From the NCBI GenBank assembly GCA_016188975.1, contig JACPGQ010000068.1:1-37550 (forward strand): DNA of 37,550 bases. Direction: 5' to 3'. The stretch's first letter is position 1, and every line of letters begins with the position of its first letter. The translations under genes and the position numbers were made by a program. Below are positions 6,839 to 24,206 of the stretch, piece by piece. A model generated the notes under the pieces. It had not been told where the DNA came from. It saw nothing but the letters and a program-made list of their open reading frames with translations, and searched no databases. This DNA is from Candidatus Levyibacteriota bacterium (GTDB lineage Bacteria; Patescibacteriota; Microgenomatia; Levybacterales; UBA12049).

Positions 6839-7801
6839 TTGAAGACGTCATTTATTTGCACAGTATTAAACGAGGAAGAAGCAATCGAGAGCTTCCTCCT
6901 ATCATTTTCCAGACAGACAAGAAAACCTGATGAAATAGTGATTGTCGACGGCGGTTCTAGGGATGGTACGATACGGAAAATCCTGAATTTTCAAGAAACA
7001 CATAAAACCCTTCATGTAAAACTTTTCAGGAAGAGAGGCAACAGGGCAGTTGGGCGTAACTTCGCAATAAGAAAAGCTAATCACGATATCATTCTCCTCA
7101 GTGATGCGGGGTGTTTGCTTTCTGCGAAATGGGTACACGAGATCTCAAAACCGTTTCTAAATTCCCGCGTTGATGTGGTATCTGGATACTACAGAGGTAA
7201 GTCTGAAACTGTCTTCCAAAAGTGTCTTATTCCATACGTTCTTGTTATGCCTGATAAATTGAAAGAGGACGCATTTCTTCCCTCAACGCGTTCCATGGCA
7301 ATAAAGAAATCAGTATTGAAGCAAATGGGATGGTTTCCCAAAGAGTATTCGCATAACGAAGACTACGTCTTCGCGAAATACTTACAGAAAGAGAGTGTTC
7401 GAATAGGCTTCGCGAAAAAAGCAATTGTGTACTGGATCCCAGTGAAAACGCTGAAGGGTGCTTTTATCATGTTTTTCCGCTTTGCTGTAGGAGATGCAGA
7501 GGCAGGAATTTTACGTCCAAAAGTGGTATTGATTATTGCAAGATACGTTTTCGCTTTGATACTGTTTTCTATCATAGTCTCTCAAAGAGATAGTACCTTG
7601 GCATTTCTTTTTTTCGTCCTTTTAATCTTGTACTTGCTTTGGGCTATTGCAAAAAACTATAAGTATGTAAAAAGATGGGAGGCAATCTATTTTCTTCCTC
7701 TTCTTCAGATAACGTCTGATATTGCTGTTCTGTCGGGTACCTGTATAGGATTACTAATACTTTTGTTCAGCAAGAATGAACGTACATTTTTTCAGGTGTA
7801 A
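6839..7801 (+). CDS. GT2 glycosyltransferase with C-terminal membrane segments
   Basis: This 320-residue protein begins with a GT-A domain: FICTVLNEEEAIESFL, IVDGGSRDGT (residues 35-44), GRNFAIRKA, LLSDAGC (a DxD variant), and HNEDYVFAKYL as the catalytic-base region. Residues from about 230 form three or four membrane helices, so the enzyme is anchored and probably works on lipid-linked acceptors. The start is a TTG; the fold begins at residue 4 and there is no in-frame ATG that keeps it. A GGGAAGG stretch at 6816-6822 could be a distant ribosome-binding site. The RxxGRN motif fits GT2 enzymes that act on polyprenyl-linked sugars. Exact sugar unknown. Confidence 0.85.
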   Translation: MKTSFICTVLNEEEAIESFLLSFSRQTRKPDEIVIVDGGSRDGTIRKILNFQETHKTLHVKLFRKRGNRAVGRNFAIRKANHDIILLSDAGCLLSAKWVHEISKPFLNSRVDVVSGYYRGKSETVFQKCLIPYVLVMPDKLKEDAFLPSTRSMAIKKSVLKQMGWFPKEYSHNEDYVFAKYLQKESVRIGFAKKAIVYWIPVKTLKGAFIMFFRFAVGDAEAGILRPKVVLIIARYVFALILFSIIVSQRDSTLAFLFFVLLILYLLWAIAKNYKYVKRWEAIYFLPLLQITSDIAVLSGTCIGLLILLFSKNERTFFQV

Positions 7802-7837: not shown

Positions 7838-9043
7838 ATGAAGACGAAAGATAAGTATATCGGGGTTGGAGACATCGCCGTTTCACAACTTGCAAAAAAA
7901 TATGTTAACCAAGTCCTTTCGTCACGCAGAATTACGTATGGCCCTTTTGCAGATTCGTTTGAAAAAGAATTTGCAAAACTTCATGACCTCAAGTATGCAA
8001 TTTTTTGCAATAGTGGAACAAGTGCTTTACAGGTGGCTCTTCACGCGCTTAAGCGGGAATATAAATGGAATGATGGGGACGAAGTACTTGTTCCGGCACT
8101 CACCTTTGTCGCGACAGTCAATATTATCATTCAAAACAACCTGACTCCTATATTTATTGATGTCGACCCTGACTTTTTCGATATTGATCCAACAATGATT
8201 GAGAAGAAGATAACGAAAAGAACTCGTGCTATTATCCCTGTACATATAGGTGGTTTGCCGTGTGATATGGATCCGATAATCAGTCTTGCAAGAAAACATT
8301 CATTGCGGATAATAGAGGATTCATGTGAAACGATTCTCGCTCGCTATAAAGGAAAGTCCGTCGGATCGTTTGGCGATTTTGGTTGTTTCTCCACGTATGC
8401 AGCCCACACATTAGTAACAGGAGTTGGAGGGTTTATCTGCACAAATGATCCGAAACTCGCAACCTTAGCCAAGAGTTTGGTTAACCATGGAAGAGACGGA
8501 ATCTATATTTCAATTGACGACGATAATGTTTCAAGCAAGAAAAAATTATTCTCAATTGTGGATAAGCGATTTAACTTTGTTGATGTCGGATATAGCTATC
8601 GGGCAACAGAGTTTGAAGCTGCGTTGGGGTTGGCTCAAATCAGGGAGTTAAAAGAAAATGTCAAGAAAAGGAGAGAAAATGCTGCATATTTATTCAAAGG
8701 CTTATCAGATCTACAGGAATTCCTGCAGTTTCCCAAAGAGAGGAAAGAAGCGATCCATACGTATATGTTTTTCCCGATTATTGTTCGAGACGGTGTGAGC
8801 AGGGAGGATCTCGTTTATTTTCTTGAGGAACGAAAGATTGAAACACGGTTTCTTTTGCCACTTTTAAGCCAACCGGTCTACAGGAGCATATTTGGTGACC
8901 TTGAGAGCAAGTATCCAGTCGCAACGCATCTTTCTCATTCGGGATTCTATGTCGGTTGCCATCCGGGATTGACCAAAAAAAACCTCGATACAATTATTCA
9001 TATTTTTCACCAGTATTTTACATCCAGGAAGAAGAGAAAATGA
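7838..9043 (+). CDS. DegT/DnrJ/EryC1-fold PLP enzyme with His replacing the PLP lysine (possible sugar 3-dehydratase)
   Basis: This 401-residue protein has the full DegT/DnrJ/EryC1/StrS fold: CNSGTSALQVALHAL, VLVPALTFVATVN, FIDVDPDFFDIDP, IPVHIGGLPCDMDPI, IIEDSCET and GSFGDFGCFSTYAAHTLVTG. In aminotransferases of this family the last motif holds the Schiff-base lysine. Here that position is His190 (codon 8405-8407). The same Lys-to-His change defines the ColD and RfbH/E1 3-dehydratases, which use PLP or PMP to remove a sugar 3-hydroxyl, and the neighbouring Cys-Glu in place of the usual Ala-Ala/Gln also points that way. The function is inferred. A TACAAT box (7815-7820) may form its -10 box, with no clear -35. 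Confidence 0.82.
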   Translation: MKTKDKYIGVGDIAVSQLAKKYVNQVLSSRRITYGPFADSFEKEFAKLHDLKYAIFCNSGTSALQVALHALKREYKWNDGDEVLVPALTFVATVNIIIQNNLTPIFIDVDPDFFDIDPTMIEKKITKRTRAIIPVHIGGLPCDMDPIISLARKHSLRIIEDSCETILARYKGKSVGSFGDFGCFSTYAAHTLVTGVGGFICTNDPKLATLAKSLVNHGRDGIYISIDDDNVSSKKKLFSIVDKRFNFVDVGYSYRATEFEAALGLAQIRELKENVKKRRENAAYLFKGLSDLQEFLQFPKERKEAIHTYMFFPIIVRDGVSREDLVYFLEERKIETRFLLPLLSQPVYRSIFGDLESKYPVATHLSHSGFYVGCHPGLTKKNLDTIIHIFHQYFTSRKKRK

Positions 9044-9047
9044 TCAG

Positions 9048-9446
9048 ATGGGGTACAAAGTTGCAACGATTTATGGTATTGGCTGGATTAGCCTGCTTCA
9101 GGTCGGTACGAGAATTATTTCTCTAGCCAAGATCATCATTGTCGCCAAAATTGTATCTCCCTACGAATTTGGTATCTTCGCACTCGTTACGACAATACTT
9201 TCTCTGGCAGAGGTTTTTACCGATGCGAGTCTTCAGACGTTTCTTATCCAGAAAAAACATGATCTTGAGAAGGTCATCTCAAGCGTCTGGAGGGTGATCC
9301 TTTTTCGGGGAGTTATACTCTTTTGCGCAGTTCTGCTTTTTTCGTTTCCTGCGTCACTTTTTTTCCATGCGGCTCCTCTTTTTCATCTTTTGTTAGTAGC
9401 TGCTTTCATTCCTCTTGTAAAGGCGTTTGAAAATCCATATGTGTGA
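9048..9446 (+). pseudogene. Wzx-type polysaccharide flippase, N-terminal fragment
   Basis: These 132 residues match the start of a polysaccharide-transport (Wzx/RfbX, MATE-like) flippase. GISWISLLQVGTR-like sequence opens the first helix (here IGWISLLQVGTRII), followed by IVSPYEFGIFALVTTILSLAEVFTDA, a signature of the family, and about four membrane helices. The frame then stops (TGA 9444-9446) just after FIPLVKAFENPYV, where full-length members continue with a cytoplasmic loop and the next helix. A complete flippase has about 420-480 residues. The gene starts 4 bases after the DegT-fold gene. The C-terminal part follows in another frame. Confidence 0.8.
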
Positions 9447-10135
9447 CCTTTGGGGTAGGAGTGTCATGGATCGTAATAAAAGATCGTCCAAGCTGGAAGT
9501 TCAAAAAAAAATACTTGAGAGAGATTAGTCAATTTATGAGATCAATTATCCCGATGAATATCTTGAATTTCGCAGTCAACCAGTACGATGTGTTATTTGT
9601 CGGACGATTTTCCGGTCCGAGTATGGTAGGCATCTACCAATTAGGTCAAAAATTTTCAAGTGTTCCTCTAATTGAATTGTCAGATATATTTGGCAAAGTT
9701 ACTTTTCCTATCTACACGAAGTTTGCTGAAGATAGAGTAAGGTTACTGAACGCATATATGAGAATTGTTTTGTCCGTACTGATCATCGGATTCATAGGTG
9801 TTGTTTTCCTATTTACAGCCTCATCATATCTTATTCGGTTTCTTGGACCATCTTGGAGCGGGATCTCAAGTTTTTTTCCAGTTCTTCTGGCATATGGATT
9901 TCTTATGTCACTATGGGGAACAACCGGATCGCTATTTCTTTCACTTTCTGCGCAGGTAATTTTAGCGAGAATTGCATTTATTCGGTTTTTACTGACAATT
10001 CCAATCGTTGGTGCTGCCACGTATCTCTACGGCATCACAGGAACTGCATGGGGATTGCTTTTGAGCATCCTCATGGTTATCCCGATAACGGTTTATTACT
10101 TTCTGAGATTTTTTCATCGCAAAAACAAAGGGTAG
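9443..10135 (+). pseudogene. Wzx-type polysaccharide flippase, C-terminal fragment
   Basis: These 230 residues continue the flippase in a different frame, opening with a GTG. The sequence from GVSWIVIKDRPSWKFKKKYLREI through FMRSIIPMNILNFAVNQYDVLFVGRF and YQLGQKFSSVPL matches the middle and end of the family, with about six or seven helices. Joined to the N-terminal fragment this gives about 360 residues. Roughly one helix plus loop (my estimate is 50-60 residues) is missing between NPYV and TFGVGV, and the two parts are out of frame. The simplest reading is an internal deletion that destroyed the gene. A sequencing or assembly error, or two cooperating half-proteins, are other options. Confidence 0.78.
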
Positions 10136-16351: not shown

Positions 16352-17913
16352 CACATACTATTACTGGTTTTCTTATCATAGCGTTCCTATCCTTCTTCGG
16401 GTCAGGGGTGATTATCAGTCCATTTTATGGAGAGATTAATTTCATTGACGAAGGACAATTCGGTGGATGGATTGCGCACATGCTTAAAGGAGAGCATCTT
16501 TACGAAGACATATATGCGGCTTACGGCCCTCTGTATATTTATCCTTTCTATCTGCTGTCGAAACTTTTTGGCCCTTCGGTTTTTCTCATCAGAATTGTCC
16601 TTATTGTTTTTAATGTGTTCTTGGCAGTTTTTATAGCATGGGGGATTATCCGTAAGTTAAGGCTCGCCTGGTACTTTCAGCTTTTCACACTCGCCATGCT
16701 TCTTATTGTTCCTGGATATACCATGCGGCAAGGAACGGGTCTTCTCACAATTTTACTATACGTTTATGCATTGGAAAAGAGAGCTGTAGGTTGGAATTTT
16801 CTCCCAGGGATGACACTTGCCATCTCCTATCTTATTAGTACCGAAATTGGTATTTTTACATCCATTATTATTTTATTGTTTGTTTTCTATCAATTTGTTG
16901 TTGCAAAGAATATTTTTGATGTCTTCAAACGGTCATTGGTAATGTTTATTGGACTTAGTATAGTTTTTTTCTTATTTTATTGGTGGTCAGCAAGCGAGGG
17001 ATGGTTTTGGCCATATATTTCGACGATTAGTGATGATTTAAGGACATATTCAAGTATAGATCTTCCAAATGGGATGAATTTCCCAAACCCCTTAGTTCTG
17101 TATCCTCGATCATTCTTTTTTCTTCCTTGGGTGAAGTTTCTTGTCTCCAAGGAGATGCTTTTATACTGGTTATTTCTCTTTTATATTATTTTCTTTTTTT
17201 ACCTCCTCGCGGCAATTATTCTTAGGCGAAAACAAAAAAATACGCCTCTCATCTTTGCAATTTCTTTATTCGGATTTCTTCTCTCCATGATACTTGTCGG
17301 GAGATCGGGCCATTTTCCTTTTACCCTCTCTCCTTTGTTTATTCTTTTTGCCTACTTTCTTGATCTGTTGGTCAAAAAATGGAAAAAGACTCAAAGTTAT
17401 GGAGAAAAAATAACTTCTACTGTTTTAGTTACGTTAATTCTTCTCTTTTCACTTCGTATTCTCCTGATTTACCGACCACATTTTATCAAGCTGCTTGATG
17501 TTCCTCAAGCAGTCCTTTCAAAGAAAAATAATCCATCTTATATAGGTAATGTTTTTATTTCCTCATCGCAAAAGAAGGATATACAGACTATGCAGAACTT
17601 TGTATGGACGAATACAAAACCTACAGACACAATATTTTTTCTCGGGAATGAGCCGATGATGTACCTCTTGGTTAATAGAGATAATCCAAGCAGGTTTGAT
17701 CTTCCAGAAGTTGCAAATACACTGGAGAAAAGGTTAGAGCTGCTCAATGCTCTACAAAAAGATAAAACGGAGTACATTATTTATGACACGAAATCATGGG
17801 ACGTTGATGGCGTCAGCAATATGCAGCGGCTTCCTGAGGTAATGAAGTATATTCGTTCATCTTATGAGGAAAGAACCCTGGGCAGCTACATTATCTACTC
17901 TCGGAAAAACTAA
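16330..17913 (+). CDS. GT-C-like membrane glycosyltransferase, family unclear
   Basis: This 527-residue protein has about 10-11 membrane helices and a soluble C-terminal domain (from about residue 395). After the first helix comes YGEINFIDEGQFGGWIAHML, with Asp40-Glu41, then GEHLYEDIYAAYGPLYIYPFYLL; this acidic first loop followed by a G-P-L-Y re-entry is typical of GT-C enzymes. The C-terminal domain contains TIFFLGNEPMMYLLVNRDNPSRF, a pattern common at the end of GT-C proteins. Donor and acceptor are unknown. I choose the ATG at 16330 (MDKKK, positive inside); an ATG at 16315 is also possible. It overlaps the YfhO gene by 22 bases and the convergent methyltransferase by 4 bases. Confidence 0.75.
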   Translation: MDKKKALTHTITGFLIIAFLSFFGSGVIISPFYGEINFIDEGQFGGWIAHMLKGEHLYEDIYAAYGPLYIYPFYLLSKLFGPSVFLIRIVLIVFNVFLAVFIAWGIIRKLRLAWYFQLFTLAMLLIVPGYTMRQGTGLLTILLYVYALEKRAVGWNFLPGMTLAISYLISTEIGIFTSIIILLFVFYQFVVAKNIFDVFKRSLVMFIGLSIVFFLFYWWSASEGWFWPYISTISDDLRTYSSIDLPNGMNFPNPLVLYPRSFFFLPWVKFLVSKEMLLYWLFLFYIIFFFYLLAAIILRRKQKNTPLIFAISLFGFLLSMILVGRSGHFPFTLSPLFILFAYFLDLLVKKWKKTQSYGEKITSTVLVTLILLFSLRILLIYRPHFIKLLDVPQAVLSKKNNPSYIGNVFISSSQKKDIQTMQNFVWTNTKPTDTIFFLGNEPMMYLLVNRDNPSRFDLPEVANTLEKRLELLNALQKDKTEYIIYDTKSWDVDGVSNMQRLPEVMKYIRSSYEERTLGSYIIYSRKN

Positions 17914-19208
17914 CGTTTCACTTCTTTTCCACGGATAATTTTGGGATATGGGAGAGGGATAATAAAATCTCCTTGATACCCTTTTTTTCTTAGTTTAGGC
18001 ATCAATTCTTCAGCAATATGCCATGAAAAAAGAAGCGCATACGCCGGCTGATCTTTAAATAGTTTTTCTTCGTCAATAATCGGAATAAGTGTCCCCGGAA
18101 CATAATTTCCGATTTTGTACGATCCCTTTATTTCGAGAACGTACTCGATTATACCTTCATCCAATCCTGCGTAGTTTATCAATGTTGAGGCGCGTGAAGG
18201 GGCACTGATTCCATATATTTTCTTTTTTCTCTTTTTTATATTCAGAAGCAATGAATGAAGTGCCAACTTTGAGATGACTGTTTTTTGTGCAAAACCCTCA
18301 AATGCTTTTTTGTTGGTTGTCGTTCCCCTCTCTTTCTTTAGCTGTTTTTCAACAGAAGATCGTATAGGAAACGCGCCTTTTTTTGCCGAATAGACACGGA
18401 TTGATCCCCCATGAGAGGGAATTTCCTTTGTGTGAAAGATTTCGAGCCCGTGCATTGCAAGAAGATTCTTAAGACTTGTCAAAGAGTAGTAGCGCATATG
18501 CTCATGGTAAATCGTGTCATACTGAATCTTTTTAATGAGCGGAAGAAGGTAGTGAGATTCGGAGATAAATACACCCTTTGGTTTGAGAATAGGACGTATC
18601 GCGTCGATAACAGTATGAATATCTTCCATATGCGCAAAGACGTTCGCCGCTGTAATGACCGTTGCTTTTCCATGCGTTTCTATAATTTCTTTCGCTACAC
18701 GTTTTGTAAAGTAATCGAGTATCGTTGGGATTCCTTTTTGTATCGCCACTTTACCAATATCTTCAGGAGTTACACCAAGGACACGATGATTCTTCATAAA
18801 ATTCTCAAGAAGCGTTCCATCATTTGAACCGATATCAACGATAAGGTCATTTTTTCCAAGACGAAGCAATCTTGACGATTCTTTATATAAGTTAGCAAAA
18901 TTATCGCGCAGGATTTTGGTCGTGCCGCTCGTATACGGATATTCTGGGGGAAAGATGATATTCGGATCAACTATAAGTCCAAGCTGTACCAAGTGGCACT
19001 TCGGACAATAGAGTAACTGAGCGGGGTAACTGGGCTGTTCTTGCGGAATACTCCCGATTGGAAGAAGCTTATTTACCGGAGGAAGGTAGCCTAGGAAAAG
19101 AATAGATTCAAGTTTGTCATTCAGACACGATTGGCAGGTTGTGACTGCAACACAAGACCCGCTCCCAAACGCTAAAGGGAGTTTATTTTTTCCTATTGTC
19201 TCCGGCAT
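17910..19208 (-). CDS. Sugar C-methyltransferase, TylCIII/NovU type
   Basis: This 432-residue protein has the three-part build of nucleotide-sugar C-methyltransferases. An N-terminal zinc-binding domain has cysteines 25, 28, 68 and 71 (CQSC and CPKC). The SAM-binding domain has IVDIGSNDGTLLENF (residues 123-137), TAANVFAHMEDI and the conserved YHEHMRYYS (234-242). The C-terminal Rossmann-like domain has IYGISAPSRASTLINYAGL. Known relatives put a methyl group on C3 of a 4-keto-6-deoxy sugar to give branched sugars. The length is normal for the family (about 400-430). The ATG lies in the end of the SDR gene (26-base overlap), so the two should be co-translated. Confidence 0.88.
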   Translation of the reverse strand: MPETIGKNKLPLAFGSGSCVAVTTCQSCLNDKLESILFLGYLPPVNKLLPIGSIPQEQPSYPAQLLYCPKCHLVQLGLIVDPNIIFPPEYPYTSGTTKILRDNFANLYKESSRLLRLGKNDLIVDIGSNDGTLLENFMKNHRVLGVTPEDIGKVAIQKGIPTILDYFTKRVAKEIIETHGKATVITAANVFAHMEDIHTVIDAIRPILKPKGVFISESHYLLPLIKKIQYDTIYHEHMRYYSLTSLKNLLAMHGLEIFHTKEIPSHGGSIRVYSAKKGAFPIRSSVEKQLKKERGTTTNKKAFEGFAQKTVISKLALHSLLLNIKKRKKKIYGISAPSRASTLINYAGLDEGIIEYVLEIKGSYKIGNYVPGTLIPIIDEEKLFKDQPAYALLFSWHIAEELMPKLRKKGYQGDFIIPLPYPKIIRGKEVKR

Positions 19209-20148
19209 TTTTATGAGTATTGTACCATAAATACGTTTGTTTTAAGCCTTCTTCAAGCGACTTCGTCGGTGTAAATCCAAGAGCTATTATTTTACGTATA
19301 TCAGGACACCGACGTATGACACTCCCGGGAGGAGAGGGGGATTTCACTAAATTAATTTTTTTATCAGCAATTTTTTCAAGCATTTTTACAATCCTGGCAA
19401 TACTTATTTCCTCATCGGTGCCGACATTGTATACTTCACCACTTTTTCCTTTTTTTAGGATGAGCAGTAAGGCATTTGTAAAGTCGTCAATATAGATAAA
19501 CGAACGTGTTTCCCTGCCTGATCCTTGAATTTGAAGCTTTATGCGTTTCTGTTTTTGTGTGAGAATTTTTGTAATGAGCTCTGGTATGACGTGCTCTTTA
19601 CCCATATTCGGACCGTAGACATTATGCGGTCTGAAGATCACTACTTTTTTGAGAAACGTTCTTCCTACATGATAGGACAGTAATTCACTGATTATCTTTC
19701 CTCCAGCGTATGAGTATCTTGGGTTTTTAAGGGAGGGAATGGAAAAAGGAACGTCCTCTGGCGTAGGAATAATTTGGGGTGTCTGATATACCTCAGAACT
19801 TGAAGCGAGAAAGAGTTCTGTTACGTTATGCATTTTTGCTCCGTCCAATACATTCAGTATTCCTTTCACCCCCACAGATAAAACAAGATCTGGCTTCTCA
19901 TAAAAGTTTTTCGTTCCATTTATAAAGGCGAGGTGGATGATGGATTCTACTCCTCTACATGCGTTCAGAACGGTTTTTGTGTCTCTTATATCTCCTTTTA
20001 TAAATTCTACGTTTGTATTTTTGGGTACCTGTGAAGGATTTCGGAATTCATTATCTAAGATTCTGATAAGCACATGTCTTTTTAGAAGTGCCTCTGTTAT
20101 ATTTCTACCGATAAAGCCTGTGCCGCCTGTTATGAGATACCGTTTCAT
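19183..20148 (-). CDS. SDR-family nucleotide-sugar epimerase/dehydratase
   Basis: This 321-residue extended SDR enzyme has the NAD-binding GGTGFIG (residues 8-14), KGDIRD, LASSSEVYQ with the catalytic Ser, and YSYAGGK with Tyr147 and Lys151. The RPHNVYGPNMG and SFIYIDDFTNALLLIL blocks are typical of UDP-glucose 4-epimerase and dTDP- or GDP-sugar dehydratases; the exact reaction cannot be told from motifs. Its overlap with a C-methyltransferase suggests it makes or modifies the keto-deoxy sugar that is methylated. The promoter reads TTTACA, 17 bases, TATAAT, 12 bases, ATG, so the leader is only about 5 bases. No Shine-Dalgarno is present. Confidence 0.87.
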   Translation of the reverse strand: MKRYLITGGTGFIGRNITEALLKRHVLIRILDNEFRNPSQVPKNTNVEFIKGDIRDTKTVLNACRGVESIIHLAFINGTKNFYEKPDLVLSVGVKGILNVLDGAKMHNVTELFLASSSEVYQTPQIIPTPEDVPFSIPSLKNPRYSYAGGKIISELLSYHVGRTFLKKVVIFRPHNVYGPNMGKEHVIPELITKILTQKQKRIKLQIQGSGRETRSFIYIDDFTNALLLILKKGKSGEVYNVGTDEEISIARIVKMLEKIADKKINLVKSPSPPGSVIRRCPDIRKIIALGFTPTKSLEEGLKQTYLWYNTHKNAGDNRKK

Positions 20149-20160
20149 AGAAGGAGATTT

Positions 20161-20189
20161 ATTATAAGTTTATATCTCTGAGTTGTAAA
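20161..20189 (-). promoter_or_regulatory. Promoter of the SDR/C-methyltransferase operon, near-leaderless
   Basis: On the minus strand TTTACA (20189-20184), a 17-base spacer and a perfect TATAAT (20166-20161) stand 12 bases before the ATG at 20148. The predicted start near 20154 leaves a leader of about five bases, too short for a ribosome-binding site. Confidence 0.65.
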
Positions 20190-20203
20190 TGGAAAGTATT
20201 GTC

Positions 20204-20232
20204 TTGCTTTTCGAAAGAGTATCATTTAAGAT
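20204..20232 (+). promoter_or_regulatory. Candidate promoter for the UDP-sugar dehydrogenase
   Basis: TTGCTT (20204-20209), a 17-base spacer and TAAGAT (20227-20232) precede the ATG at 20258. A start near 20239 leaves about 19 bases of leader without a clear Shine-Dalgarno. This supports the start at 20258, because an ATG at 20189 would lie upstream of the promoter. Confidence 0.5.
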
Positions 20233-20257
20233 CTCACTATTCTTTTCTGGACACGAC

Positions 20258-21526
20258 ATGAAAAAAAATACCTCTAAGAAAAACTCTACCGTCGCCGTCA
20301 TTGGGGTAGGGAGGGTGGGGCTTCCATTGGCACTCATTTTGGCTGAAAAGGGATTTACCGTTTACGGTATAGGAAGAAATGAGAAAAAGACCGAACAGGT
20401 AAATGAAGGAATTATGCCGTTTATGGAGAAAGGCGCCCCATCGATACTCCGACGAGTAAAAGGGAAAACGTTTTTTGCAACAGTTGATTATTCACACGTC
20501 GTAAAATGCGACTTTATCATCCTTACTCTTGGAACTCCTATTGATGAAAATATGAACCCCGTTTTCTCGCAGATTCACGATGCTGTTGCATCAATGAAGC
20601 AATTTCTCAGACCAGGTCAGACACTCATCTTGCGAAGTACTGTAACTCCTGGCACGACAAAATACGTTCGGTCAATGCTAGAAGCGGATAAATCACTAAA
20701 AGTTGGCATCAATTTTTTTCTCGCCTTTTGCCCGGAGAGAATTGCCGAAGGGAAGGCGATAGAGGAGATAGAAACTGTTCCACAGATGATTGGTGGCGTT
20801 GATGCGAAAAGCGGAAAAAAAGCAGAAGAGCTTTTCAAAAAAATAGGCGTTGCGACCATGCTGACGGATGATGTCTCGGCAGAACTTGCCAAACTTTTTA
20901 CAAATATGTACAGATACATTAATTTCGCAATGGCAAACGAGTTTATGATTTTGGCTGACAATTACCATAAAGACATCCATGAGATAGTAGACCTTGTAAA
21001 CTTCGGCTACACAAGAGGCGGGGTGAGTTTGCCGGGCCTTACGGCAGGACCGTGTCTTTTTAAGGACGGATTCTTCATGATCTCTGATCTACCCTTTGCT
21101 GATCTTTTTTTAACAAGCTGGAAAATAAATGAATCAATTCCGCATTTCCTCGTAAAAAAACTGAGGGATACAATGGTTCTTGCGAACAAGAAAGTCACTA
21201 TTCTGGGTCTTGCATTTAAGGCAGAGATAGATGATGTCAGAGCATCGTTAAGCTTTAAAGCGCGCAAAGCACTCCTCAGGGAACGAATGGAAGTCGCACT
21301 TCATGATCCATATCTAAAAAACCATTCAGAACATCGCATCGAGAAAGATATTTATCAAGCGCTAGACGGAGCAAATGTTATTTTTGTCGGAACAAATCAT
21401 AAAGAGTATAAGCATCTTGATATGAAGAGAGTTAGAAAAATTGTGAAAAAAAATTGTATCGTCTGTGATGTCTGGAATGTTTTTGGAACGGGTAAAATTA
21501 TTTTTTCGCTAAGTGACTATTTCTAA
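20258..21526 (+). CDS. UDP-sugar 6-dehydrogenase (UDP-glucose/UDP-ManNAc dehydrogenase family)
   Basis: This 422-residue enzyme oxidises a nucleotide sugar at C6 to the uronic acid using two NAD. It has the N-terminal VIGVGRVGLPLALILAEKG Rossmann motif, ILTLGTPID, RSTVTPGTT, AFCPERIAEG (157-165), the central helix AKLFTNMYRYINFAMANEF, and PGLTAGPCLFKD with catalytic Cys266, then the C-terminal ILGLAFKAEIDDVR. The GPCLFKD variant occurs in the WecC/WbpA-like branch (UDP-ManNAc or UDP-GlcNAc dehydrogenases) more than in plain UDP-glucose dehydrogenase, but the substrate remains uncertain. The ATG at 20258 is chosen because the Rossmann motif follows at once and the promoter lies upstream. It is a single-gene unit converging on the GT2 gene 8 bases away. 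Confidence 0.92.
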   Translation: MKKNTSKKNSTVAVIGVGRVGLPLALILAEKGFTVYGIGRNEKKTEQVNEGIMPFMEKGAPSILRRVKGKTFFATVDYSHVVKCDFIILTLGTPIDENMNPVFSQIHDAVASMKQFLRPGQTLILRSTVTPGTTKYVRSMLEADKSLKVGINFFLAFCPERIAEGKAIEEIETVPQMIGGVDAKSGKKAEELFKKIGVATMLTDDVSAELAKLFTNMYRYINFAMANEFMILADNYHKDIHEIVDLVNFGYTRGGVSLPGLTAGPCLFKDGFFMISDLPFADLFLTSWKINESIPHFLVKKLRDTMVLANKKVTILGLAFKAEIDDVRASLSFKARKALLRERMEVALHDPYLKNHSEHRIEKDIYQALDGANVIFVGTNHKEYKHLDMKRVRKIVKKNCIVCDVWNVFGTGKIIFSLSDYF

Positions 21527-21533
21527 GTGTGTA

Positions 21534-22313
21534 TTATTTCGCGATTGTCGCTTTTGGTACTCTTACGGCAAGTTCTCTATTAGAGTGTAGCTCGCGGAAG
21601 TGTTTTGCTCCGTAAACGAACCATCGAAAATATTCTTTCATCCACGGACCAATCCGGAAAGTCGATTTTCCGCCGTACAATCGGTCAATTGAGATGATAG
21701 GCACTTCGCCTAAGTGAAGCCCAGCAATCTGCGCCTTCATCGCCATCTCAAAAACGACTGCCCACCCAACTGGCTTTGATTCAAGAATAATTTTTTTGGT
21801 GATGTCTTTACGAAACATTTTGAAGCCCGTTGTAGCATCGGAAAAGATCGAGCCGCAGAGAAGTCTAAACAGCCTGTTCGCTATTTGCGAAAGGAATGAC
21901 TCTAAAAGTGATCCTCCCAACCGTCTTCCTCCATGCCTATATCTCGTGCAGCTGACAAATTCACAGCCATGATCCATCAGATAAATCATGTCTTCGATAG
22001 CGAGTGTTGGTCCTACATCGTCGACAGCAAGTATGAGAATATATTTTCCGTTTGCACTATCAATTCCTGCTTTGATTGCATTAATAACTCCTTTGCCAAA
22101 GTGGTTGTAGACGAGCCGAATATCCTGATTTTTCTTTCGAATCTCTCTAATAGCGGGGATTGTATCGTCAGCTTTATCATCGTAAATGATGAGGATTTCA
22201 TGAGGAATTTCTAGGACAGCCTCGAGGATTTTGAGCATAAGATGGATGTTTATTCCCTCGTTTCTTACCGGTAGGAGTATTGAAAGGGTGAGCTTGGAGT
22301 TAGGACGTTTCAT
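21534..22313 (-). CDS. GT2 glycosyltransferase, DPM-like
   Basis: This 259-residue GT-A enzyme has LSILLPVRNEGINI, ILIIYDDKADDTIPAI, GKGVINAIKAGID, the metal site AVDDVGPTL, and DATTGFKMFRKDI followed by GWAVVFEMAMKAQIAGL. This is the dolichyl/polyprenyl-phosphate-mannose-synthase-like pattern, so it probably makes a polyprenyl-phosphate sugar for GT-C enzymes. It has no C-terminal membrane helices, so it would be peripheral. The start chosen is the ATG at 22313, overlapping the aminotransferase by 14 bases; an ATG at 22346 would add 11 hydrophobic residues. It is the last gene of a five-gene minus-strand operon. Confidence 0.85.
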   Translation of the reverse strand: MKRPNSKLTLSILLPVRNEGINIHLMLKILEAVLEIPHEILIIYDDKADDTIPAIREIRKKNQDIRLVYNHFGKGVINAIKAGIDSANGKYILILAVDDVGPTLAIEDMIYLMDHGCEFVSCTRYRHGGRRLGGSLLESFLSQIANRLFRLLCGSIFSDATTGFKMFRKDITKKIILESKPVGWAVVFEMAMKAQIAGLHLGEVPIISIDRLYGGKSTFRIGPWMKEYFRWFVYGAKHFRELHSNRELAVRVPKATIAK

Positions 22314-23403
22314 CAGAAAAAAATGTTTTAATAAGCTTACAAACATTCACGATATCGTTATCACTGAGAGTAAAAGCAGAAGGAAGCCAGAGTGCTTTTG
22401 GTGACAAAGCAGAACTTATCGGAAAATGCTCATCTGATAGTTTGTAATAAGCCTGAGAATGAATCGGGTACCAGAAGTTTCGACTACCTATATTCTTTTT
22501 TTTCAAAAACGCCACTAGATCATCCCTCCGTTCTGTGAGGACATCTGTCCACTGAGGAAGCTCACCCGCATCTACCTTGAACGGAAGTACTGAAACTTCT
22601 TTGAGCTGGGAGAGGAGTTTTTTATAGATACGATGGTTTTTTCTCATCCTCTGAATTCTTTTTTCGAGATAGACGAGCTGACCGAGGCCGACTGCTGCTT
22701 GCAGGTCAGTAAATTTGAAATTGAATCCGAGTGCAGGGTGGATATCATTCCCTCCGGTTCCTCTCACTGGTCTTCCCTGGTCTTTGAGCATCTTGAGTTT
22801 TAGATAGAGATTGTCATCATTCGTAACAATCAGCCCTCCTTGTCCTGTGCTGATTGTTTTTGCGGGTGAGAGCGAAAAACAACCCATATCACCGAATGTT
22901 CCCAGGTACTTTCCTTTGTATTTTGACATGAATGCTTCCGCCGCGTCTTCTACCACGAGGAGTTTTTTTCGTTTTGCAATTTTTGACACTTCGTGCATAT
23001 CTGCAGCCCTTCCGCTAATGTGGACAGGAATGACAGCTTTTGTTTTGTCGGTAATCGCCCGTTCAAAGCAGTTTATATCGATTGTGAGTGTAAGGGGATC
23101 AACATCTACAAGTATTGCTTTCGCACCAGTCATCTCAACAGCATTTGCAGTGGCGATAAACGTGATGTCAGGAACGATTACTTCATCACCATATCCGATT
23201 CCCGCCGACTTTAACGATAAAAACATGGCAGCAGTAGCGCTCGTCACAGCGAGGACGTGTTTCACGCCAAGATGCTCTCCAATGTTATTTTCGAATTCTG
23301 TCGTAAGCTTTCCTTCGTTTGGGAAAGCGCTTTGCAGAACAGATTTGAGGAGCGTTACCTCTTTTTTTCCGAACTGCGGCTGCCACCATGGTATTTTTTT
23401 CAT
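22300..23403 (-). CDS. DegT/DnrJ/EryC1-family sugar aminotransferase
   Basis: This 367-residue PLP enzyme converts a keto sugar nucleotide to an amino sugar. It has LAVTSATAAMFLSLKSAGI, VIVPDITFIATANAV, LVDVDPLTLTID, IPVHISGRAADM, VVEDAAEAF with the ring-stacking Asp153, and CFSLSPAKTISTGQGG with the Schiff-base Lys182. Unlike the paralogue at 7838 all catalytic residues are present. It starts with ATGA over the stop of the formyltransferase, so the pair is coupled; the order suggests that it makes the amino group that the neighbour formylates. The likely regiochemistry is C4 by analogy with formylated Qui4N or perosamine, but this is inference. Confidence 0.92.
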   Translation of the reverse strand: MKKIPWWQPQFGKKEVTLLKSVLQSAFPNEGKLTTEFENNIGEHLGVKHVLAVTSATAAMFLSLKSAGIGYGDEVIVPDITFIATANAVEMTGAKAILVDVDPLTLTIDINCFERAITDKTKAVIPVHISGRAADMHEVSKIAKRKKLLVVEDAAEAFMSKYKGKYLGTFGDMGCFSLSPAKTISTGQGGLIVTNDDNLYLKLKMLKDQGRPVRGTGGNDIHPALGFNFKFTDLQAAVGLGQLVYLEKRIQRMRKNHRIYKKLLSQLKEVSVLPFKVDAGELPQWTDVLTERRDDLVAFLKKKNIGSRNFWYPIHSQAYYKLSDEHFPISSALSPKALWLPSAFTLSDNDIVNVCKLIKTFFSDETS

Positions 23404-24206
23404 TTTTTACTCTTTACAGAATTATTATCTACAATGACCATTTTCTTTTTACCGATTGTAAACGATGGGGGAGGAAAGGGCTCAAACGTCATAGCTCTAA
23501 TAAAATTATACAGTTTTTTTCCATCCCAGGACCAGTCTATCTGGCCATTATTGGGCAGTCCTTTTTTGTAGTATGTCGCATCGTGTTCATTCTGAGTCAT
23601 CGCGTCTGTCTTTCTTCCTTGTAGCCATTTCTTGAGAAATATGCCAAACAGCTCTGTACCCGTTTTCGTAAATTTGTCATAAACTGTTTTAGCTGTGTCA
23701 GTATTTGTTATACTGAACTTTTTTTGCATAATAATTGGGCCAGAATCAACACCCTCATCCATCCAATGTACCGTAACGCCTGTTTCTTTTTCTCCGTTGA
23801 AGATTGCCCACGCGGTAGAGTATCTTCCCCGGTATTTAGGCAAGAGTGCTGGGTGAATGTTGAGACACCCTTTTTGAGGGATTTTTAGGACATCTGGTGG
23901 GATGATTTGGAATGCACCAATGCAGAAGATTATTTCCGGATGAATCGCCCTTATTCGTTTTATGACGTGAGCGTTTTTTAGCTTTCTATTTTGTACTAGA
24001 GGGAGCTTTTTTTGCTTAACTACTTTTACCAATGATTCGTGCCATGTATCTTTTCCAGTGTCGTCAAGATTGGCAATAACAAGCTTTGGTCTGATTCCAG
24101 CATCTAAAAGTTCTCGTAAACAATTCACCCCTATTTGCCGTCCTCCTATGAAAATACAGCTTTTTTCAGTTGTCGTTTTAGTTATGGTAGGGTGTATCCT
24201 TTTCAT
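23400..24206 (-). CDS. Sugar N-formyltransferase (methionyl-tRNA formyltransferase fold)
   Basis: This 268-residue protein has the formyltransferase fold that uses N10-formyl-tetrahydrofolate. The catalytic triad is visible: Asn116 and His118 in LNIHPALLPKYRGR and Asp154 in DEGVDSGPI, with TGVTVHWMD between. After the catalytic domain there is a C-terminal region (ATYYKKGLPNNGQIDWSW, then a short FIRAMTFEPFPPPSF segment) like that of ArnA, VioF and other sugar enzymes, rather than a tRNA-binding domain. With the coupled aminotransferase the likely product is an N-formylated amino sugar. A true tRNA formyltransferase (fmt) is less likely from the length and neighbours. It lies 13 bases after the GT2 gene. 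Confidence 0.86.
   Translation of the reverse strand: MKRIHPTITKTTTEKSCIFIGGRQIGVNCLRELLDAGIRPKLVIANLDDTGKDTWHESLVKVVKQKKLPLVQNRKLKNAHVIKRIRAIHPEIIFCIGAFQIIPPDVLKIPQKGCLNIHPALLPKYRGRYSTAWAIFNGEKETGVTVHWMDEGVDSGPIIMQKKFSITNTDTAKTVYDKFTKTGTELFGIFLKKWLQGRKTDAMTQNEHDATYYKKGLPNNGQIDWSWDGKKLYNFIRAMTFEPFPPPSFTIGKKKMVIVDNNSVKSKK

Follow-up and report, generated by a model that had tools for sequence, protein, structure and literature searches.

Does the open reading frame at 7838-9043, which automatic annotation would be expected to label an aminotransferase, encode a transaminase at all, given that a histidine stands where DegT aminotransferases hold their Schiff-base lysine? We examined this question in a window comprising the whole analysed stretch of 37,550 nucleotides (contig JACPGQ010000068.1, assembly GCA_016188975.1) from a Candidatus Levyibacteriota bacterium, hereafter the host. 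We conclude that the gene probably encodes an Fe-S-free, PMP-dependent, ColD-like NDP-4-keto-6-deoxyhexose 3-dehydratase, with GDP-4-keto-6-deoxymannose as the likeliest substrate of its clade. The gene, its diagnostic sites and a contrasting paralogue are as follows:

7838-9043, + strand: ORF of 401 aa, His-type DegT enzyme, predicted NDP-4-keto-6-deoxyhexose 3-dehydratase (Pfam, NCBIfam, tree, AlphaFold2)
8315-8332, + strand: EDSCET, residues 160-165 (translation and alignment)
8390-8422, + strand: STYAAHTLVTG motif, residues 185-195
8405-8407, + strand: CAC, codon of His190, which takes the site of the PLP lysine (alignments)
8483-8524, + strand: acidic, Cys-free loop NHGRDGIYISIDDD, residues 216-229, replacing the E1 [2Fe-2S] cysteine loop
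8954-8956, + strand: Gly373 codon (alignment)
22300-23403, - strand: Lys-type DegT aminotransferase paralogue, a contrast from outside the system

The translation of 7838-9043 includes STYAAHTLVTGVGG, which contains H190, and the stretch at 8384-8428 singled out by the earlier note corresponds to its residues 183-197. Profile and fold both assign the protein to the DegT/DnrJ/EryC1/StrS family, with a match to the DegT profile PF01041 at 331.5 bits (cut-off 19.8). In alignments with solved structures, H190 shares a column with the catalytic His220 of E1/RfbH (PDB chain 3bcx) and falls exactly where the E1 H220K mutant (chain 3bb8) carries its lysine, while the multiple alignment places it in the column of ColD H188. 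The protein thus lacks the lysine that defines DegT aminotransferases proper and carries the His-for-lysine exchange of the dehydratase class, bearing out the claim that His190 occupies the PLP-lysine position. The paralogue also reads as first described, with SLSPAKTISTG, EDAAEA and Lys at the aligned column, and the host genome's two other full-length DegT proteins likewise have Lys there.

The histidine is a property of a lineage. We delimited a clade of 21 sequences including the query, the other 20 sharing 45-64% identity with it, and a score gap sets this clade apart, with members above 370 bits and all other sequences below 225. Eighteen of the relatives come from genomes of the host phylum and were found by searches around the host at the family, class and phylum levels, and a one-genome-per-species search added one each from Gemmatimonadetes (L006) and Omnitrophota (L007). 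With the host counted, clade members turned up in 9 of the 380 genomes sampled from its phylum and in 13 of the 374 sampled from its class; the viral contigs searched contained no relatives, and in plasmid and phage records no relative reached 60% identity, the closest having about 35%. Every member (21/21) keeps the His within STY.[AT]H...[ST]G.GG, which rules out chance or sequencing error behind H190. Our literature search found no paper joining Patescibacteria with dideoxyhexose, and the clade is apparently an uncharacterised, distinct lineage, mainly among the host's small-genome relatives. As a separate observation at L006:9162-9869 and L007:5299-6030, the L006 and L007 genes encode the dehydratase fused to a C-terminal domain akin to the neighbouring family 2 glycosyltransferases, which has no Pfam match and lacks the NE, GRG and SPDGNEDP motifs; an intact glycosyltransferase copy adjoins each fusion, and the fused domain is possibly a pseudo-glycosyltransferase scaffold.

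The earlier note had named a position deep among true aminotransferases, with a lysine supplied from elsewhere, as the result that would speak against a dehydratase, and neither feature was found. Our tree of 78 rows is unrooted, its 34 Lys-type rows having been picked among the query's relatives; a branch supported at 100/100 keeps all 34 together on a single side, excluding a nesting of the query among Lys-type aminotransferases, and a search for an invariant lysine across the 21 clade sequences yielded none, the best conserved, K72, being R in one member. The query clade of 21 rows has support of 100/96, and ColD, RfbH/E1 and a group with the motif TTSFxGSH cluster at 100/99 with the query clade outside them. 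By this sequence tree the protein is a separate His-type lineage, neither RfbH nor ColD; of the proposed ColD/RfbH-type identity, the 3-dehydratase kind is supported and the membership of either family is not. A single change suffices to account for the His/Lys state on the tree, though, with the tree unrooted and the Lys-type rows drawn from the query's relatives, one versus several origins of the His is not settled.

A second column separates the two classes in the same way. In column 373 every one of the 44 His-type rows, ColD, E1 and the query among them, has Gly, versus none of 69 Lys-type rows, 56 of which have Pro there, and this split supports the dehydratase grouping without resting on the His itself. 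The EDSCET segment, said to depart from the aminotransferase EDAAEA, is present as described but is weakly diagnostic: its C163, the counterpart of E1 C193, occurs in 42 of 44 His-type rows and also in 16 of 69 Lys-type rows, and D161 is invariant throughout every sampled group. Taken with the tree and the gene neighbourhoods described below, the alignment and G373 support the suggestion that this is a putative sugar 3-dehydratase misannotated as an aminotransferase.

The AlphaFold2 model of the protein (pLDDT 91.6) has a fold resembling GDP-perosamine synthase, E1 and ColD, with Foldseek TM scores (query length) of 0.81-0.89 against DegT enzymes of known structure, and its top structural match is an aminotransferase, GDP-perosamine synthase. 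This nearest overall fold, together with the aminotransferase side activity that SpnQ shows when deprived of its reductase (PMC8987622), would favor a lysine-independent aminotransferase, a non-catalytic relative or some other PMP reaction. We regard such an identity as very improbable, because the tree and G373 set the query apart from aminotransferases and the strict conservation of the His and of the pocket residues D161, S185 and S59/G60/T61 argues against a dead enzyme.

If the protein is a 3-dehydratase, does it follow the iron-sulfur route of E1? C193 is the fourth [2Fe-2S] ligand of E1, and its counterpart C163 is the only one of the four cysteines present in the query. The other three are without counterpart in all 21 clade members: the E1 loop bearing cysteines 251, 253 and 261 becomes RDxIYxxIDDD in the clade, a Cys-free region in which Y223 and D228 are invariant. 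The four-cysteine [2Fe-2S] site that marks E1/RfbH/SpnQ is therefore absent, and the query shares with ColD a His-type active site without an Fe-S cysteine loop. E3-type reductases contain a FAD_binding_6 domain, and this domain is missing from 8 of 19 related genomes, an indirect sign that such a reductase is not generally needed.

It is accordingly extremely unlikely that the enzyme is an E1/SpnQ-type dehydratase passing its 3,4-hexoseen intermediate to a reductase via an iron-sulfur cluster, a role to which the parallels of A189-H190 with the Ala-His of E1 and of C163 with C193 would otherwise point. RfbH is indeed the top NCBIfam match, but at 272.8 bits it lies under the cut-off of 423; an AU test rejects a joint group of the query and the RfbH clade (p-AU 1.4e-5); and no CDP-glucose 4,6-dehydratase exceeds its cut-off in any of the 21 clade genomes (0/21). 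The AU test, the missing Fe-S cysteines and the low score together exclude membership of RfbH. E1 is known to bind its Fe-S cluster through four cysteines (PMC8987622).

Two further His-type finds came to light beside this clade. The same bacteria carry another lineage of His-type enzymes, with the motif TTSF[FY]G[SA]H (rows L049, L053-L055, L058, L060-L062, L064, L065, L068 and L088), which is sister to RfbH and without Fe-S cysteines, and in L102 a gene of this type lies immediately upstream of a query-clade gene. On a Solidesulfovibrio magneticus plasmid, a DegT gene annotated as an aminotransferase (L134:2977-4182) has SLYVAH and a four-cysteine loop and adjoins a GDP-L-fucose synthase gene; it is possibly an Fe-S 3-dehydratase outside the RfbH clade.

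What, then, does the acidic loop do? In the monomer model the IDDD loop is poorly predicted (mean pLDDT 56 for block 221-230), and our guess is that it lies near the partner subunit's active site. One could imagine that the STYxAH clade evolved separately, with the conserved Y..IDDD loop assuming a role of the E1 Fe-S loop (for example, by binding a metal or by letting the second subunit control the hexoseen intermediate), either a different product or another fate for the intermediate, and a coupling to glycosyltransferases through the module fused in two phyla; we think this scenario decidedly unlikely. The evidence does not require the new reaction class that the earlier note had floated: it fits known chemistry in a new sequence lineage.

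The evidence on the substrate comes from genomic context. The ORF sits between two genes, adjoining neither GMD nor a reductase:

6839-7801, + strand: family 2 glycosyltransferase, directly upstream (PF00535)
9048-10135, + strand: polysaccharide flippase-like gene, open over two frames, 9048-9446 and the overlapping 9443-10135 (first part PF13440/PF01943)

The two frames of the flippase-like gene (132 and 230 aa) overlap by four bases, which may mean that a frameshift or a deletion has occurred or that two genes are present. Elsewhere in the window, a separate sugar cluster at 17910-24206 holds a C-methyltransferase (PF08421/PF08484), an SDR, a sugar-nucleotide dehydrogenase-like ORF, a glycosyltransferase, the Lys-type aminotransferase and a formyltransferase, which suggests a formamido or C-methyl sugar.

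Among the loci of the relatives, a GMD above the curated NCBIfam cut-off adjoins the clade gene at 5 of 20 (L098, L099, L100, L105 and L106), and a homologous GMD lies near it in L006 and L096, bringing the nearby total to 7 of 20. At many loci there is also another SDR, which often resembles GDP-L-fucose synthase though it falls under the cut-off for that enzyme, and many have a family 2 glycosyltransferase downstream of the gene; the reductase types close to it differ between loci. Genome-wide, 15 of 21 clade-bearing genomes (host included) have a GMD above the cut-off versus 74 of 281 class genomes (Fisher p 0.03, computed within the class); such co-occurrence is moderate evidence alone, and adjacency is the stronger point. 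GDP-4-keto-6-deoxymannose, on which GDP-perosamine synthase acts, is thus the most likely substrate of the clade on genomic context.

For the host the matter is less direct. Its genome encodes GMD, RmlB and a mannose-1-phosphate guanylyltransferase-like gene, and in its closest relatives (G580 and G603), as well as in G450, no GMD exceeds the cut-off and there is just an SDR scoring about 192-209 bits; because the two nearest relatives have only this weaker GMD-like SDR, along with the dTDP route, the GDP sugar is a putative substrate for ORF 7838-9043 itself. The same 3-dehydratase chemistry might instead act, in the host and its nearest relatives, on dTDP-4-keto-6-deoxyglucose or another non-GDP NDP sugar, as the lack of a GMD above the cut-off in G580 and G603, the RmlB above its cut-off with an RmlA-like gene in both G603 and the host, and the RmlD-like SDR that follows the gene in a relative of 63% identity (L093) would allow. 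We consider this unlikely but credible, since wherever a 4,6-dehydratase adjoins a clade gene it is GMD, the host itself has GMD, and the SDRs close to the gene are more often Fcl-like.

The sugar 3-dehydratases are relatives of aminotransferases in which the His replacing the lysine serves as both base and acid; E1 and SpnQ are Fe-S forms that use reductases, whereas ColD is the Fe-S-free form, in which the intermediate is hydrolysed and glutamate regenerates PMP (PMC8987622). For the ColD-like enzyme we infer the following course, from the chemistry and the state of the cofactor to substrate, product and glycan. GMD would supply GDP-4-keto-6-deoxymannose, whose 4-keto group would form a Schiff base with PMP; His190, standing for the Schiff-base lysine, would take a proton off the cofactor as the C3 hydroxyl departs; and hydrolysis would yield a 4-keto-3,6-dideoxy sugar and PLP, from which glutamate would restore PMP. 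Reduction of C4 by an SDR, which might be accompanied by an epimerisation as happens when colitose is made, would then give the 3,6-dideoxyhexose that goes into a surface glycan.

3,6-Dideoxyhexoses are known mainly from Gram-negative O-antigens, and our findings suggest that mostly uncultivated small-genome bacteria probably produce them as well. In these bacteria the label 'DegT aminotransferase' would accordingly conceal one or more coherent lineages of dehydratases, and we anticipate that the clade may serve as a new entry point to the residues besides the Lys-to-His exchange, such as Gly373, that decide between dehydration and transamination.

Among known systems, ColD (PDB 2gms, 3gr9) resembles the query in its DegT fold, in the His at the lysine position and Gly at 373, in the missing Fe-S loop and in the GMD and Fcl-like SDR genes near the query's relatives. 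It differs in its separate tree branch and an identity of about 26% (structural alignment), in having Ser where the query has Ala before the His and Trp where the query has F90, and in lacking the Y..IDDD loop, which is the query clade's own. E1/RfbH, the CDP-4-keto-6-deoxyglucose 3-dehydrase (3bcx), shares the Ala-His pair at the site of the lysine, the Gly of column 373, the counterpart of Cys163 and about 30% identity, but the query is without its cysteine Fe-S loop and a common clade is rejected. GDP-perosamine synthase (3bn1/3dr4) shares 33% identity and has T61, L64, A92, N95 and P341 in common with the query, in which, in contrast, His replaces its catalytic Lys186 and Gly its Pro at column 373.
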